From: Desulfotignum sp.
Lineage (GTDB): Bacteria; Desulfobacterota; Desulfobacteria; Desulfobacterales; Desulfobacteraceae
DNA: 9,452 bases
Direction of reading: 5' to 3'
Assembly: GCA_011390235.1 (NCBI GenBank)
Contig: JAABSS010000465.1
Span: 1 to 9,452 of the forward strand
This document shows positions 1 through 6,681 of the stretch, piece by piece (the first letter of the stretch is position 1; each line of letters starts with the position of its first letter). The translations under genes were made by a program, and so were the position numbers. The notes beneath the pieces are model-generated. The model made no database searches. It saw nothing but the letters and a program-made list of their open reading frames with translations, and was not told the DNA's origin.

Positions 1-812
1 GCAAAGAGCAATGGAAAGATCTGTTTCATGAATCCCCAGGTGGAATCGATCCAGGACACGCGTTCATCCTTGGTGAACCAGGCTTTTAGCATCCATCCCA
101 AAGCAATTAAAAGAATAATGGTAATAACCCATTTGGCGGCGAAAATGGCCGGCCAGAGACCTGTTGCATTCGGAGCCGGTTTGGCAAAGGCGGCAAAAAT
201 AAGGATCAGGACCATGGTCAGAATATAGATGCTGTCCTGGAAAAGGGTCCGGCCCTTGTCATCTTCATCCGGCACATAGATCTGGCCCCCGGTTCTGGCC
301 ATGTCATCTTTTTTAAAGATCACCGACATCAACAGGCCCGTGATGACTGCAAAAACAACGGCACCAATGGCCCGGGCAAGGCCCAGCTGCCATCCCAGGA
401 TCTTGGCGGTCATGGTGATGGCCAGGACATTGATGGCCGGCCCGGAATACAAAAATGCGGTGGCCGGGCCGATACCCGCCCCCCGGGTGTAGATGCCGGC
501 AAACAGCGGCAGCACCGTGCAGGAGCAGACCGCCAGGATGGTGCCGGAAACCGATGCCACCGAATAGGACAAAATTTTACTGGCCTGGTTGCCGAAATAT
601 TTGAGTATTGATGCCTGGGATACGAATACGGCAATGGCACCGGCAATGAAAAACGCCGGGATCAAGCAGTTCAAAACATGTTCTCTGGCATATTCCTGGA
701 GCATCATGAATGCTTCCAGCCCGGACTGCCGGATCAACGGATCGTCCCAGGGCATGAAATAGGCCATGAGAAACAAAGCCACCAGAATGAGCAGTTTGGT
801 TTTTTCTTTCAT
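1..812 (-). CDS. UPF0718/ArsP-type permease, C-terminus beyond window
   Basis: This is an integral membrane permease of the UPF0718 (DUF318) family. Members include ArsP, which exports trivalent organoarsenicals, and other permeases of unknown substrate. About 270 residues are visible and the C-terminus runs off the left edge. The translation shows hydrophobic segments near residues 5-20, 47-65, 83-105, 115-135, 146-166, 194-210 and 225-243. The family hallmark CSCTVLPLF lies at 95-103 (CSC at 96-98), followed by RGAGIGPATAFLYSGPAIN (110-128). A charged loop (KKDD to DEDDKG, 167-187) separates the two halves. The ATG at 810-812 has an AAAGGAG site 7 bases upstream. It follows the arsR stop by 25 bases, so the two are very likely cotranscribed and controlled by that repressor. 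Substrate is not determinable: arsenical, other metal or thiol-reactive compound. The family call is firm; a role in arsenic efflux is inferred from the neighbour. Confidence 0.88.
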   Translation of the reverse strand, partial: MKEKTKLLILVALFLMAYFMPWDDPLIRQSGLEAFMMLQEYAREHVLNCLIPAFFIAGAIAVFVSQASILKYFGNQASKILSYSVASVSGTILAVCSCTVLPLFAGIYTRGAGIGPATAFLYSGPAINVLAITMTAKILGWQLGLARAIGAVVFAVITGLLMSVIFKKDDMARTGGQIYVPDEDDKGRTLFQDSIYILTMVLILIFAAFAKPAPNATGLWPAIFAAKWVITIILLIALGWMLKAWFTKDERVSWIDSTWGFMKQIFPLLF

Positions 813-837: not shown

Positions 838-1185
838 TCAGTTTCGGTTCAAAATGATATTACGGTCAATGGCAGGCAGGTGCCGGACCATGGTTTGCAC
901 TTCCGGATCATCTTCCAGCCAGTGGTGGAGATGGCTGATCAGGCTTGCGGCAAACTGGCTCTGGGTGCCGTCCGCCAGTTTGTAATTCACCCACAGCCCG
1001 TTTTTCTGATAGGTTATCAGGCCTGCATCTTCCAGGATTTTCAAATGTTTGCTGGTGGTGGACTGGGCCTTATCCAGGGCGGTCTGGATTTCACACACGC
1101 ACATGGTTTTGTGCTGAAGCATTTTCATGATTTTAACCCGGGCCGGATCAGACAAGGCTTTCATGACTTTGATAAATTCTTTCAT
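838..1185 (-). CDS. arsR: ArsR/SmtB-family metalloregulatory repressor
   Basis: A 115-residue winged-helix repressor of the ArsR/SmtB family, the usual length. It starts with the typical KALSDPARVKIMKML helix (9-23). The recognition-helix region is AQSTTSKHLKILEDAGLI (40-57) and the wing is YQKNGLWVNYKL (59-70). Cysteines 29 and 31 lie in a CVCEI motif at the position of the arsenite-sensing ELCVCDL motif of classical ArsR, so a trivalent metalloid or soft metal is the likely inducer. By family knowledge, metal binding releases the operator. The ATG at 1183-1185 has a weak AGGAA site. The gene heads an operon with the permease downstream. A sigma70-like promoter overlapped by a dyad lies about 110-150 bases upstream, and the same dyad recurs in front of the DUF1573 gene. 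This suggests autoregulation plus control of that second unit. A gene symbol beyond arsR-like cannot be assigned. Confidence 0.93.
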   Translation of the reverse strand: MKEFIKVMKALSDPARVKIMKMLQHKTMCVCEIQTALDKAQSTTSKHLKILEDAGLITYQKNGLWVNYKLADGTQSQFAASLISHLHHWLEDDPEVQTMVRHLPAIDRNIILNRN

Positions 1186-1291: not shown

Positions 1292-1338
1292 AATATATCG
1301 TTAAAACCGAATATATAGTTGTAGGGCCTGTTTGTCAA
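1292..1338 (-). promoter_or_regulatory. arsR promoter with overlapping ArsR-type operator
   Basis: Read on the minus strand, TTGACA (1333-1338) is followed after exactly 17 bases by TATATT (1310-1315), a near-consensus sigma70 promoter. Over the -10 box and start region lies an AT-rich imperfect inverted repeat at 1292-1318. On the plus strand its arms are ATATATCG and CGAATATAT, separated by TTAAAAC. This is the expected place for a repressor operator. The same 27 bases with two substitutions recur at 2257-2283. The predicted leader to the arsR ATG is about 115 bases. A weaker candidate, CTGACA (1230-1235), 17 bases, TATTTT (1207-1212), lies closer to the gene and cannot be excluded as a second promoter. 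Binding by the encoded ArsR is inferred. Confidence 0.72.
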
Positions 1339-1384: not shown

Positions 1385-1426
1385 CACACCCGTGGAAAAC
1401 AATCAGAATTGCCTGCCACGGGTGTG
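1385..1426 (-). terminator. Nested hairpin, probable terminator of the DUF1573 gene
   Basis: A perfect 11-bp inverted repeat (CACACCCGTGG at 1385-1395 and CCACGGGTGTG at 1416-1426) encloses 20 bases. Those 20 bases contain a second 4-bp stem (CAAT/ATTG at 1400-1403 and 1408-1411) with a four-base loop. It lies 54 bases past the stop of the DUF1573 gene and before the arsR promoter, where a terminator would be needed. On the minus strand the tract after it, TTTGGTTT, is only moderately T-rich, so termination is plausible rather than certain. Between this hairpin and the stop there is a smaller TGCCC/GGGCA stem (about 1450-1463). Confidence 0.55.
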
Positions 1427-1480: not shown

Positions 1481-2191
1481 TTACGGCTGAAGGTGGCCGG
1501 ACACCCGGACCCTGATATCTCTTTTGGGGGTGGTGTCTGTTTTCAGAACAATGATATCAAAATACCTGCCGGCCCCTTGTTTTTTGTTGTTAACAGTCAG
1601 CAGAAAATAATTGTCCGGCGGGGTTCCCTTTTTTTCAATGGTGAAGTCAATGTCTTTGCCCACTTTTGCCTGTGCACTGGTGATGTCAAAATCGGGCACG
1701 GCAGCCGGGATGATCTTTACCTGGGCCGAGATTTTTTCACCCGGTTTTCCCCGGAGGCTGACAATCTCCGGTGTCAGACGTGCCATTTGTCTGACCTCAC
1801 CGGACATGGAAATGGTGAATATCCGGTAGGCAGGATCATTGGTGTGGATTTTAACCACTTCTCTGACCATTCTGCCGCCATAGCCCTGTGTTGAAAATGT
1901 TGCTTTTATTTTCCCTTCTTCCCCCGGAAGAATCAGCCGGTCACTGGTGGCTGCGGTGCACCCTCAGCCCGATTCAATCTTGAGGATTTCCAGGGGGGCG
2001 GTGCCGGTATTGCTGAGGGTAAATTCATGGGTAACCACATCCCCTTCAATGACCGGATCAAACTTGTAACTGGGGTCTGTTATGGAACCGCTGGGGGTTC
2101 CCTGGGTGGCGGTGGATGATGATGATGAGTCTGCATACAACGGCTGGATCCACAACAAAGCCAGCATCAGCAGGAATAACCATTTTTTCAT
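1481..2191 (-). CDS. Secreted DUF1573 protein, apparent selenoprotein (Sec76)
   Basis: Reading through one in-frame TGA (1964-1966) gives a continuous 236-residue protein. Without readthrough there are only a 75-codon piece and a downstream piece in the same frame. Residues 1-20 are a signal peptide (MKKWLFLLMLALLWIQPLYA), followed by a Ser-rich linker. The DUF1573 (ASH/Ig-like) domain spans about 42-135: a YKFDPVIEGDVVTHEFTLSN strand pair, TGTAPLEILKIESG, then U-GCTAA at 76-80, LPGEEGKI, and the VKIHTNDP repeat. Family members normally have (S/G)CGCT here, so the TGA replaces the first Cys of the conserved pair and Cys78 is retained. Residues 136-236 form a second beta-rich region. The ATG at 2189-2191 has AAAGGAG 10 bases upstream. 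The gene has its own promoter, almost identical to that of arsR, so arsenic- or metal-type induction is likely. The protein is presumably periplasmic and its role is unknown. A nonsense mutation or sequencing error (TGC to TGA) is the alternative. Confidence 0.82.
1916..1953 (-). promoter_or_regulatory. Candidate bacterial SECIS hairpins after the in-frame TGA
   Basis: In the mRNA (minus strand) two hairpins follow the UGA. The first, CAGCC/GGCUG (pairing 1949-1953 with 1934-1938), has a 10-base loop containing AGUGA. The second, stronger one has a 7-bp stem UUCUUCC/GGAAGAA (1926-1932 with 1916-1922) and a GGG loop, beginning 38 bases after the UGA. Bacterial SECIS elements need a stem-loop shortly downstream of UGA with a G early in the apical loop. 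The second hairpin meets the loop rule but lies at the outer distance limit, while the first is nearer but has a short stem. Both are read by eye and neither is proof. Confidence 0.45.
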
Positions 2192-2256: not shown

Positions 2257-2303
2257 AATATATCTTTAAAACGGAATATATAGATTCATAGATCCTACGT
2301 CAA
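2257..2303 (-). promoter_or_regulatory. Promoter and ArsR-type operator of the DUF1573 gene
   Basis: On the minus strand TTGACG (2298-2303) is followed after 17 bases by TATATT (2275-2280). The AT-rich imperfect dyad at 2257-2283 covers the -10 box. It matches the arsR operator (1292-1318) at 25 of 27 positions and sits at the identical register relative to the -10 and -35 boxes. The start codon lies about 85 bases downstream of the -10 box. The most economical reading is that the nearby ArsR represses both transcripts. Binding is inferred, not shown. Confidence 0.7.
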
Positions 2304-4262: not shown

Positions 4263-4414
4263 TTAAAATAAAATCACATTCCGACAGTCCATGCATAAAC
4301 CGCGATGGTCCAAAAATGCAAGCTCTTTTTTGCTGATATGCTCTCCGGCCAGCATCTGAGGCAGCACCAGGTCCAGCACTGTGATCCGGTAGTGGAGCCC
4401 GCAGGGCGGCGCCC
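4263..4414 (-). pseudogene. Degenerate copy of the 3' end of the MoeA-like gene
   Basis: Bases 4275-4414 align with 5685-5825, the last third of the C-terminal domain of the MoeA-like gene, in the same orientation. By eye there are about 16 substitutions and one single-base deletion, near 88% identity. The translated piece (CGLHYRITVLDLVLPQMLAG, then GLCMDC) mirrors the intact protein. The deletion shifts the frame in the Cys-rich tail and the remnant ends at a TAA (4263-4265). There is no upstream part of the gene: homology stops abruptly at about 4414. It is either debris of a second paralogue or a duplicated end made when the segment 4415-5684 was inserted. Confidence 0.8.
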
Positions 4415-4518
4415 GGGTCCTGGTGGAGGATTTGGAGGAAGGGGATGGTAACCAAAAGGTAGCCCCTTTTTTAATGACGGCTGCCAGAAATTTTTGGAAA
4501 ACAGTATTTTTTTCTTGT

Positions 4519-4590: not shown

Positions 4591-5625
4591 ATGGCAAAAT
4601 TAAGAAAACGCGGGGAAACGATTCGGCAGTTCATTCTTGATCATGTTGAAAGTCATCCTTCTGATATCGCACAGATAGCAGCAGAAAAGTTCGATATCTC
4701 ACGACAGGCAATAAATAAACACATGCGGCAACTGATTGAACAAAATACAATGGTTATGTCTGGACACACAAAGGCCCGCCGGTATGGCCTTGCTCCACAT
4801 ACAGAAGTGATAAAAACATTTTCCCTGGATGACAACCTGCAGGAGGATGTGGTCTGGCGCAATGATATGTCTGTTCTGCTTTCCGATTTCCCGGACAATA
4901 TAATTGAAATATGGGGTTACTGTTTCACAGAAATTCTCAATAACGCGATAGATCATTCATCAGGACAAACGGTCAAAATCAGCCTGAAAAAAAATGCCGT
5001 CAGCACAGAGATATATATCCATGACAACGGAGAAGGGATATTTAAAAAAATTCAGCGGGAAATGGGGTTGCTGGATGAACGGCATGCTGTTTTGGAATTA
5101 TCCAAAGGAAAGCTTACAACTGATCCATCACGTCATACAGGAGAGGGTATTTTCTTTTCTTCAAGAATGGTTGATGATTTCCAGATTTTATCAGGAGACA
5201 CATATTTTTCACATAAACATACCGAAGAATCTGATTGGGTTCTTGAGAGATACCAACCAGGCAAAGGCACCTTGGTCTATATGAAGATGAAAAACAACTC
5301 TTCCAGAAACGTCAAAAAAGTTTTTGATGCCTATACCACTACCGAGGATTATGGTTTCAATAAAACGATAGTGCCTGTCCGTCTGGCGCAATACGGGAAC
5401 GAAATGCTTGTGTCCCGTTCGCAAGCCAAAAGGCTTTTGTCAAGGATTGACCGTTTTAAAACCGTGATCCTTGATTTTGAGGGAGTTGATTCCATAGGAC
5501 AGGCGTTTGGAGATGAAATATTCCGGGTGTTTGCAATGAAAAATAAAGACATTATTTTGTTGCATGTAAACGCATCAAAGGAAGTTGAACAGATGATTAT
5601 GCGTGCCCTTTTAAATTCTGATTAA
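4591..5625 (+). CDS. Winged-helix / GHKL ATPase / STAS-like (DUF4325) regulator
   Basis: A 344-residue cytosolic protein with three parts. Residues 5-67 form a winged helix-turn-helix (IAAEKFDISRQAINKHMRQL at 29-48, wing to RRYGL). Residues about 95-235 form a GHKL/HATPase domain with an N-box (TEILNNAIDHS, 113-123; Glu114, Asn118), a G1 box DNGEGI (145-150) and a G2-like HTGEGIFFSS (182-191). Residues about 250-344 match the STAS-like DUF4325 domain (VDSIGQAFGDEIFRVF, 299-314). No His-phosphorylation helix or membrane segment is seen, so it is not a classical sensor kinase. It resembles an anti-sigma-factor-type ATPase joined to its STAS partner and a DNA-binding head. It is the only plus-strand gene, more AT-rich than its neighbours, and preceded by the 22-bp repeats, which suggests transfer and autoregulation. 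Its targets are unknown. Confidence 0.87.
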   Translation: MAKLRKRGETIRQFILDHVESHPSDIAQIAAEKFDISRQAINKHMRQLIEQNTMVMSGHTKARRYGLAPHTEVIKTFSLDDNLQEDVVWRNDMSVLLSDFPDNIIEIWGYCFTEILNNAIDHSSGQTVKISLKKNAVSTEIYIHDNGEGIFKKIQREMGLLDERHAVLELSKGKLTTDPSRHTGEGIFFSSRMVDDFQILSGDTYFSHKHTEESDWVLERYQPGKGTLVYMKMKNNSSRNVKKVFDAYTTTEDYGFNKTIVPVRLAQYGNEMLVSRSQAKRLLSRIDRFKTVILDFEGVDSIGQAFGDEIFRVFAMKNKDIILLHVNASKEVEQMIMRALLNSD

Positions 5626-5649: not shown

Positions 5650-6681
5650 TCACATGCCTTTGCCGAACGGGCAATGGGGGTGAACACATTCCGGACAGTC
5701 CATGCATAAACCGCCATGGCCTAAGAAGGCAAGTTCTTTTTTGCCGACATGCTCTCCGGCCAGAATCCGGGGCAGCACCAGGTCCAGCACCGTGACCCGG
5801 TGGTGGAGCCCGCAGGCCGGCACCCCGATCAGCGGTGTGCCGATGATATAGGCCACCATGAACATGGCCCCGGGCAGGGCCGCTGCCCCGTAATGTATTT
5901 CTGTGACACCGGCTTTGCAGATGCCTTTGCGGGTCACGTCATCCGGGTCCACGCTCATGCCGCCGCTCAAGAGAATCAGGTCGCACCCGTCAGACAGATG
6001 GGTTTCAATGGCTTTTTGAATCAGGGATTCATCATCCGGGGCAAACATGATCCCGGAAACCGTGGATCCCAGGTCAAGAATTTTTTTTCTGAGTATCGGC
6101 GCGAACTTGTCCTCTATCAGGCCGGAAAACACCTCATTTCCCGTGATGACGATGCCGGTTTTCTTTGCTTTGAGGGGATGGACACTGAGAATACCGCCGT
6201 TCTTCCCGGCAATGGCGGCGGCCCGCTCGACCGGGGCCCGCTTCATCACCAGGGGGATGGCCCGGGTGGCTGCCACCTGCCGGCCTTTTTTCACCAGGGT
6301 GTGGCTGTGCAAAGAGGCGCACATCACCTCATCCACCATGTTGAAGGCAGTCAGGGCTGCCGCATCCACCCGGAGCAGGCCGTCGGTTTTGGCATACAGG
6401 CAGATCTTGCCCTCCTTTGGGTCGTTGTCAAAGGTGATGCCTGTGCCGGCCAGGCTTTTGGCCAGGATGGCCGCGGCCTGGTTCTCATGGATTTCATCTT
6501 TTTCAAGATCAATGAGATACAGATGGTTTTTTCCCAGCTTCTGCAGGTGGCAGATGTCTTGATCGCAAACGGTGTGGCCTTTTCTGAAAGCCGGGCCCTT
6601 GAACTCCCCGGGCCGGATTTCAGTGATGTCATGGCTGAGAACCTTGCCCACCGCATCGGTGACAGAAATTTTTTTCAACAC
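5650..6681 (-). CDS. MoeA-like molybdopterin-binding protein with Cys-rich tail
   Basis: A 343-residue protein with a MoCF-binding (MoeA/MogA-type) domain, the fold that binds molybdopterin during metal insertion. Counting from the GTG at 6679-6681, the signature is GIVITGNEVFSGLIEDKF (176-193) and LILLSGGMSVDPDDVT (235-250), followed by GTPLIGVPACGLHHR (281-295). It is shorter than MoeA (about 400), and the N-terminal part only loosely resembles MoeA. The end carries CMDCPECVHPHC (Cys326, 329, 332, 337), a probable metal or Fe-S site absent from MoeA itself. GTG was chosen because AAGGAGG lies seven bases upstream; an upstream ATG at 6777 would overlap the preceding gene by about 100 bases. 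It overlaps the FmdE gene by 7 bases, implying coupled translation. It likely serves cofactor maturation of the upstream molybdoenzyme. Its last 141 bases are duplicated at 4275-4414. Confidence 0.88.
   Translation of the reverse strand: MLKKISVTDAVGKVLSHDITEIRPGEFKGPAFRKGHTVCDQDICHLQKLGKNHLYLIDLEKDEIHENQAAAILAKSLAGTGITFDNDPKEGKICLYAKTDGLLRVDAAALTAFNMVDEVMCASLHSHTLVKKGRQVAATRAIPLVMKRAPVERAAAIAGKNGGILSVHPLKAKKTGIVITGNEVFSGLIEDKFAPILRKKILDLGSTVSGIMFAPDDESLIQKAIETHLSDGCDLILLSGGMSVDPDDVTRKGICKAGVTEIHYGAAALPGAMFMVAYIIGTPLIGVPACGLHHRVTVLDLVLPRILAGEHVGKKELAFLGHGGLCMDCPECVHPHCPFGKGM
5685..5825 (-). repeat. Intact copy of the 140-bp direct repeat
   Basis: This part of the MoeA-like coding sequence is the intact partner of the degenerate copy at 4275-4414. 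The two copies are direct repeats and bracket the AT-rich regulator gene with its 22-bp repeats (distance about 1.4 kb). Confidence 0.75.

Follow-up and report, generated by a model that had tools for sequence, protein, structure and literature searches.

The DNA analysed here, a 9,452-nucleotide stretch from Desulfotignum sp. (the window), raises the question of whether an in-frame TGA in a gene for a DUF1573 protein is read as selenocysteine (Sec) and, if so, what the resulting Sec-Gly-Cys (UGC) site might do. The gene lies on the minus strand (1481..2191; 236 codons plus stop), running from an ATG at 2191 to a TAA at 1483-1481. Its translation confirmed the preliminary description, which had left the strand unstated, in that the only internal stop of the frame is a TGA at 1966-1964 (1964..1966, minus strand, residue 76) with the same phase on both sides. 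In the product this codon stands in the context S-G-U-G-C-T-A-A, where it occupies the position of the first Cys in the CGCT motif of DUF1573. The read-through product scored 69.2 bits against Pfam DUF1573 (PF07610, cut-off 26.1), which Pfam annotates as a protein of unknown function, and 115.4 bits against the NCBIfam model NF041425, OS_HP2 family (seleno)protein (cut-off 100). By eye, its N-terminus (MKKWLFLLMLALLWIQPLYA) resembles a signal peptide, by which the protein is probably exported. Structure prediction gave two Ig-like domains (model pLDDT 87.5), with the U76-G-C78 tripeptide placed in a turn of the first; solved structures of cilia scaffolds, pilus chaperones and cadherins are among the listed fold matches. 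A sequence search of the PDB returned marginal troponin matches only (best E 0.0098), which we took as noise.

When the window protein was scanned against a collection of genome contigs, 12 loci were recovered. The codon at the motif position was TGA in 8 of them (four Desulfotignum MAGs, a 'Proteobacteria' MAG, a Desulfobacterales MAG, a Desulfobacula MAG and 'bacterium AUK263') and Cys in the other 4, which carry the titles Porphyromonas, Chlorobi, Bacteroidetes and Paludibacter. A profile built from 13 relatives was then run on genomes of the class to which the Desulfotignum MAG G004 belongs (taken to be Desulfobacteria), and DUF1573 was matched in 347 of 389 genomes. Among the best 150 class matches listed, 141 contained exactly one TGA, 8 contained none and 1 contained two. 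From the best-scoring class matches, 60 loci were retrieved so as to cover all 8 listed stop-free matches; the motif codon was TGA in 52 and TGC or TGT in 8, the latter all being the stop-free matches, and the GC of the motif followed directly in 60/60. An additional match of the L010 protein, gapped at the motif column, was omitted from this count. A count of TGAs per match in 80 lower-scoring class genomes, hand-picked from those whose matches fell outside this list, showed that 74 had one or more matches with a single TGA and that 6 had none of this kind.

Another 39 loci were read, 29 of them from the G004 phylum and 10 from that of AUK263, with two of the 39 repeating earlier loci: 33 had a TGA, each falling on the U of U-G-C, while the remaining six comprised three with CGC and three without such a motif (L142, L144 and L147). 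Matches with one TGA occurred in 25 of 80 genomes of the AUK263 phylum (26 matches), and DUF1573 matches of any kind, with and without TGA, in 164 of 395 genomes of the G004 phylum. In a protein collection, 28 of the 57 clusters found consisted of 129-132-residue fragments that begin after the TGA (M-V/I-...-H-T-N/S-D-P), meaning that about half of these clusters are headless fragments of the UGC-DUF1573 gene.

The protein is conserved on both sides of the TGA, and full-length, intact Cys forms exist. On a FastTree tree the Cys copies were placed at several points, so that Sec and Cys interchange, as is usual for redox sites. The preliminary description had held a random nonsense mutation at this codon to be unlikely and had proposed an alignment at residue 76; the alignment did yield Cys members (4/12 and 8/60 loci), and because relatives keep TGA or Cys at the motif codon (52 and 8, respectively, in the 60 class loci), chance or random mutation is excluded. 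Judged from these sequences, the UGC form of DUF1573 appears to be nearly class-wide in Desulfobacteria. The retention of UGC in most of the class, together with its interchangeability between Sec and Cys, marks the likely reactive atom of the protein.

Sec-decoding machinery was assessed in the genomes of relatives. SelA exceeded its cut-off in 9/9 relatives' genomes compared to 1/14 controls, and SelB in 7/8 genomes of TGA loci, with a partial match in the eighth, compared to 2/14 controls. tRNA-Sec exceeded its cut-off in 6/8 genomes of TGA loci and in 5/5 other Desulfotignum-clade genomes; since 5/14 controls also pass this cut-off, more than for SelB, tRNA-Sec alone is no sharp test. No tRNA-Sec over cut-off was found in the two MAGs nearest to the window protein (G001 and G002), both of which have SelB and SelA. 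Separately, two Desulfotignum-clade genomes carry a second Sec-decoding pair, in which a second tRNA-Sec (tca) lies beside a second SelB over cut-off (G198, L160:3684-6503; G137, L161:6413-8482). By eye, the neighbours of this pair look like 2Fe-2S and NuoF-type subunits, and in G198 a Cys-type DUF1573 (CGCT, L160:5631-6350) sits between the second tRNA-Sec and the second SelB.

Taken together, the conservation of the codon, the Sec machinery of relatives, the interchange of Sec and Cys and the covariation of a hairpin across the family (below) make it close to certain that the TGA at 1966-1964 encodes selenocysteine and that the gene encodes a selenoprotein, in agreement with the earlier proposal that Sec replaces the first Cys of CGCT.

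Downstream of the TGA, the window contains a candidate SECIS helix (helix 1; 1934..1953, minus strand, CAGCC/GGCUG, offsets 10-29 after the TGA) and a second hairpin (1913..1932, minus strand, offsets 31-50) over the I-L-P-G-E-E-G codons, which reads UUCUUCC-GGG-GGAAGAA at offsets 31-47. The stable hairpins with a G-rich loop that had been described here are thus present, but they are not stable beyond chance in the window: the fold after the TGA is unremarkable (z -0.98, 31/200 shuffles as good), and the hairpin region gave z -0.81 in the family comparison. In a bacterial SECIS prediction, which the preliminary description had suggested, the window fell short of the published energy limit. 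The published bSECIS rule specifies a loop of 3-9 nt, a stem of 4-16 bp, a G in the first two loop bases, a spacing of 16-37 and an energy of -7.5 kcal/mol or lower, and the same text mentions that some selenoprotein genes fail it (PMC13188914); using an approximation of this rule, the best candidate in the window reached -6.5 kcal/mol. The approximated rule accepted 22/61 Sec loci (resampled 0.24) and 3/8 Cys loci (resampled 0.09), and it separates Sec from Cys copies poorly because so few Sec loci pass and some Cys loci pass too.

Across the family, we codon-aligned the post-TGA sequences of 61 Sec loci, which include close relatives and give 57 distinct helix sequences, and the corresponding sequences of 8 Cys loci. 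Helix 1 pairs offsets 10-16 with 23-29, and 0.762 of cells were paired in the 57 distinct Sec sequences, compared to 0.518 in the Cys copies, 0.31-0.50 when the partners were slid by 1-4, and 0.724 in the best of 1000 partner shuffles, a comparison that ignores relatedness. Both sides change at helix pairs 13-26 (TA 23, CG 21 and TG 10 among the 57) and 14-25 (CG 37, TA 8 and TG 6), and the window retains 5 of the 7 pairs. The mean fold energy of Sec copies was -9.12 versus -6.64 after synonymous codon resampling, and that of Cys copies -6.08 versus -4.92. The family hairpin comparison gave a Wilcoxon p of 2e-8, which ignores relatedness, and hairpin z-scores did not differ significantly between Sec copies and the Cys copies, of which there are only 8 (p 0.16). 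RNAalifold assigned -22.1 to all Sec sequences against a codon-column shuffle mean of -11.9, with 0/200 shuffles as low; for the two genomic settings described below, 5/200 (type H) and 2/200 (type R) shuffles were as low, and helix 1 was absent from the consensus of the 18 distinct type-R sequences alone.

These comparisons support a SECIS for the family as a whole, while a SECIS in the window itself is only plausible. As a SECIS candidate, the second hairpin with its GGG loop was weakened, since its sequence encodes the conserved PGEEG and most of it persists in the 8 Cys copies; the protein motif would partly explain this hairpin. An Rfam search of the window gave no match.

In the window, DUF1573-U is followed by a gene for an ArsR/SmtB-family regulator (838..1185, minus strand; PF01022 63 bits, NF033788 88.8 bits with a cut-off of 55) and then by an ArsP_1-family permease with a C-S-C motif (3..812, minus strand; PF03773 143.3 bits), which is truncated by the window end. 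The operator-like site previously described ahead of DUF1573 proved to be real: it spans 27 bp (2257..2283, minus strand), lies 66-92 nt upstream of the DUF1573 start codon and is 93% identical to a second 27-bp copy upstream of arsR (1292..1318, minus strand). With up to 5 mismatches, the DUF1573-side site was present in 10/10 Desulfotignum-clade loci and the arsR-side site in 9/10. Scanning at up to 8 mismatches gave 3 matches in 294,995 bases of shuffled DNA and also produced matches within the HAD gene of seven type-H loci; these we take as a coding coincidence. Between DUF1573 and arsR lies a 19-nt inverted repeat (1385..1426; arms 84% complementary, 4 nt apart), a possible terminator, and DUF1573-U may therefore form a separate unit, presumably under the same regulator as arsR. 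Elsewhere in the window (4270-4440 and 5690-5820), two versions of the end of a molybdopterin-binding (MoCF) gene are present, of which the shorter looks by eye like a decayed copy. A plus-strand HATPase/DUF4325 gene (4591-5625) lies between them, and the arrangement as a whole resembles a duplication or insertion scar.

The arrangement in the window is one of two settings in which UGC-DUF1573 occurs, with the neighbour counts for both being lower bounds because many contigs are short. In the first (type H), a HAD-family hydrolase lies downstream on the same strand in 39/69 loci (median gap 36 nt), and PriA lies upstream in 23 of 69 loci, some with PolA further on; in several class genomes (e.g. 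L089, L074 and L084) the UGC gene is seen between PriA and the HAD hydrolase with PolA beyond. In the second (type R), to which the window belongs, 20 loci (19 Sec, 1 Cys) have an ArsP_1 permease, CcdA (DsbD_TM) or MauE nearby and also carry, in varying number, ArsR, an MTH895/ArsE thioredoxin, a DGC-domain protein, thioredoxins and rhodaneses. In the Desulfotignum loci the order beyond ArsP is ArsE, thioredoxins, CcdA, rhodanese, MauE, rhodanese and a cysteine-rich CCG protein. MauE was the nearest gene found upstream of UGC-DUF1573 in 6/20 type-R loci, other than the Desulfotignum ones, and lay within 250 nt upstream in 5 further loci. Type-R copies fell into two separate groups on the FastTree tree; leaving deep branches aside, type-R and Cys copies each appear more than once on it. 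Two side observations concern individual loci. In L130 and L137 a further DUF1573-like match begins ~10 nt after the UGC copy, possibly an extra domain or a tandem copy. Downstream of ArsE in L062, several type-R operon genes contain in-frame TGAs at scattered positions, in contrast to the one TGA of the motif; these genes look decayed or wrongly assembled.

In the type-R operons, MauE carried CGCF in 12/14 matches, ArsP CSC in 15/17 and the operon thioredoxin CxPC in 16/18, with the misses in these three being low-scoring or cut matches, and ArsE carried CxxC in 17/17. CcdA showed four Cys columns without exception (14/14, then 16/16 three times) and rhodanese one invariant Cys column. One cluster of the protein collection (P0054) was listed with DUF1573, DsbA and Thioredoxin_4 domains. 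As recurrent members of this operon, MauE, CcdA, thioredoxin and ArsP are testable candidate partners for the selenoprotein.

On balance, we favour a role for UGC-DUF1573 as an extracytoplasmic selenol-thiol exchange protein that serves an ArsR-linked soft-element export operon, because the CGCF of MauE, the CSC of ArsP, the CxxC of ArsE, the CxPC of the thioredoxin and the Cys residues of CcdA and rhodanese occur in the same operons. The redox or soft-metal chemistry outside the cytoplasm that had been suggested from the window alone would fit this operon. In such a mechanism, SelB and tRNA-Sec would decode the TGA, aided by RNA structure just downstream, and the UGC site would cycle outside the cytoplasm between a selenol/thiol and a selenylsulfide form, serving in rapid disulfide exchange (PDI-like) or as an electron relay. 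Electrons could pass from the cytoplasm to CcdA, on to thioredoxin and then to UGC/CGC, with the CGC-bearing MauE as relay partner, and the relay would maintain the proper redox state of both the soft-element exporter and its thiol-bound cargo. We infer the redox cycling, the partners, the direction of electron flow and the substrate from motifs and gene context. Two observations speak against a redox relay, namely that the type-H copies (39/69 loci, beside the HAD hydrolase) have no obvious redox partner and that the predicted fold appears to be Ig-like rather than that of a thioredoxin. More tentatively, UGC-DUF1573 could be a near-universal extracytoplasmic selenoprotein of Desulfobacteria with an Ig-like fold and MauE as its dedicated partner, the two forming a relay from CGC in the membrane to UGC in the periplasm that was recruited more than once into ArsR/ArsP operons; if true, this dedicated relay would give DUF1573 its first function. 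The portions of the DUF1573 literature available to us describe no function for any DUF1573 protein.

The main rival to the selenol-thiol relay is metal(loid) binding, in which UGC would be a soft-metal(loid) ligand that coordinates through its selenolate and thiolate, and the protein a periplasmic chaperone taking As(III), Hg(II), Cu(I) or an organometal from the CSC-bearing ArsP permease. The ArsR regulator, the common operator-like site and the CSC motif of ArsP_1 would all suit such a role, and the part of a review available to us considers metal binding possible for the Sec of SaoB, SaoC and UXX-star proteins (PMC13188914). However, copies in the HAD context keep UGC with no metal genes seen among their recurrent neighbours, and the CcdA, thioredoxins and MauE of the operons suggest electron flow; we regard metal binding as less likely than the relay. 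Less probable still is a purely structural role, in which Sec would only improve a scaffolding Ig-domain protein and UGC would form a stabilising selenylsulfide without turnover. This would agree with the Ig/ASH-like fold, with the cilia scaffolds, pilus chaperones and cadherins among its solved matches, and with the absence of the motif from some family members, yet Sec is a costly residue that is retained in most class genomes examined, and the disulfide of CGC has been described as comparatively unstable, opening and closing fast (PMC4316792). Finally, a true stop, leaving a pseudogene or two proteins of 75 and 129 residues, might be read from the 28 clusters of 129-132-residue fragments but is highly improbable given that the motif codon is only TGA or Cys in the loci read, that both sides of the TGA are conserved, that intact full-length Cys forms exist and that relatives have Sec machinery.

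The selenol-thiol relay that we favour resembles known systems in part. Sec in the first place of a CGC tripeptide should speed it up, and the window protein has the tripeptide of the CXC-type mimic of protein disulfide isomerase with Sec for the first Cys. CGC itself, with an E0' of -167 mV, is a protein disulfide isomerase mimic (PMC4316792, citing Woycechowsky and Raines), although the CGC work in the text available concerns peptides and Nox2, not Ig-fold bacterial selenoproteins. A search for literature on MauE or CcdA together with a selenoprotein found nothing useful, and a DUF1573 gene appears as only a table entry in the available part of a study of the iron-dependent stimulon of Bacteroides thetaiotaomicron (PMC10434189). 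The TSO/SAO neighbourhoods (TsoB, TsoR, SaoE; Haft, cited in PMC13188914) likewise combine, as far as the excerpt goes, a metal regulator with a permease and a thiol relay. The TsoB, TsoR and SaoE models gave weak matches to the operon CcdA, thioredoxin, rhodanese, ArsR and permease, but all fell far below the curated cut-offs, and we rejected membership in TSO/SAO; TsoA, TsoC and SaoC had no match among the operon proteins scanned.

The closest known system is the OS_HP2 family (NF041425) itself, with which the window protein shares the PF07610 domain, the UGC motif of the review tables and a score above cut-off. DUF1573 with the motif UGC is tabulated in one review, citing Zhang and Gladyshev 2007 (PMC9312934), and DUF1573 'UGC' again in a 2026 review (PMC13188914), in each case, within the text available, as a single table row without function or gene context. 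The family is thus already known as selenoproteins, and the window gene adds one member. The class-wide spread of the UGC form, its ArsR/ArsP/MauE setting, the shared operator-like site and the covarying hairpin go beyond what these two reviews give in the parts available.
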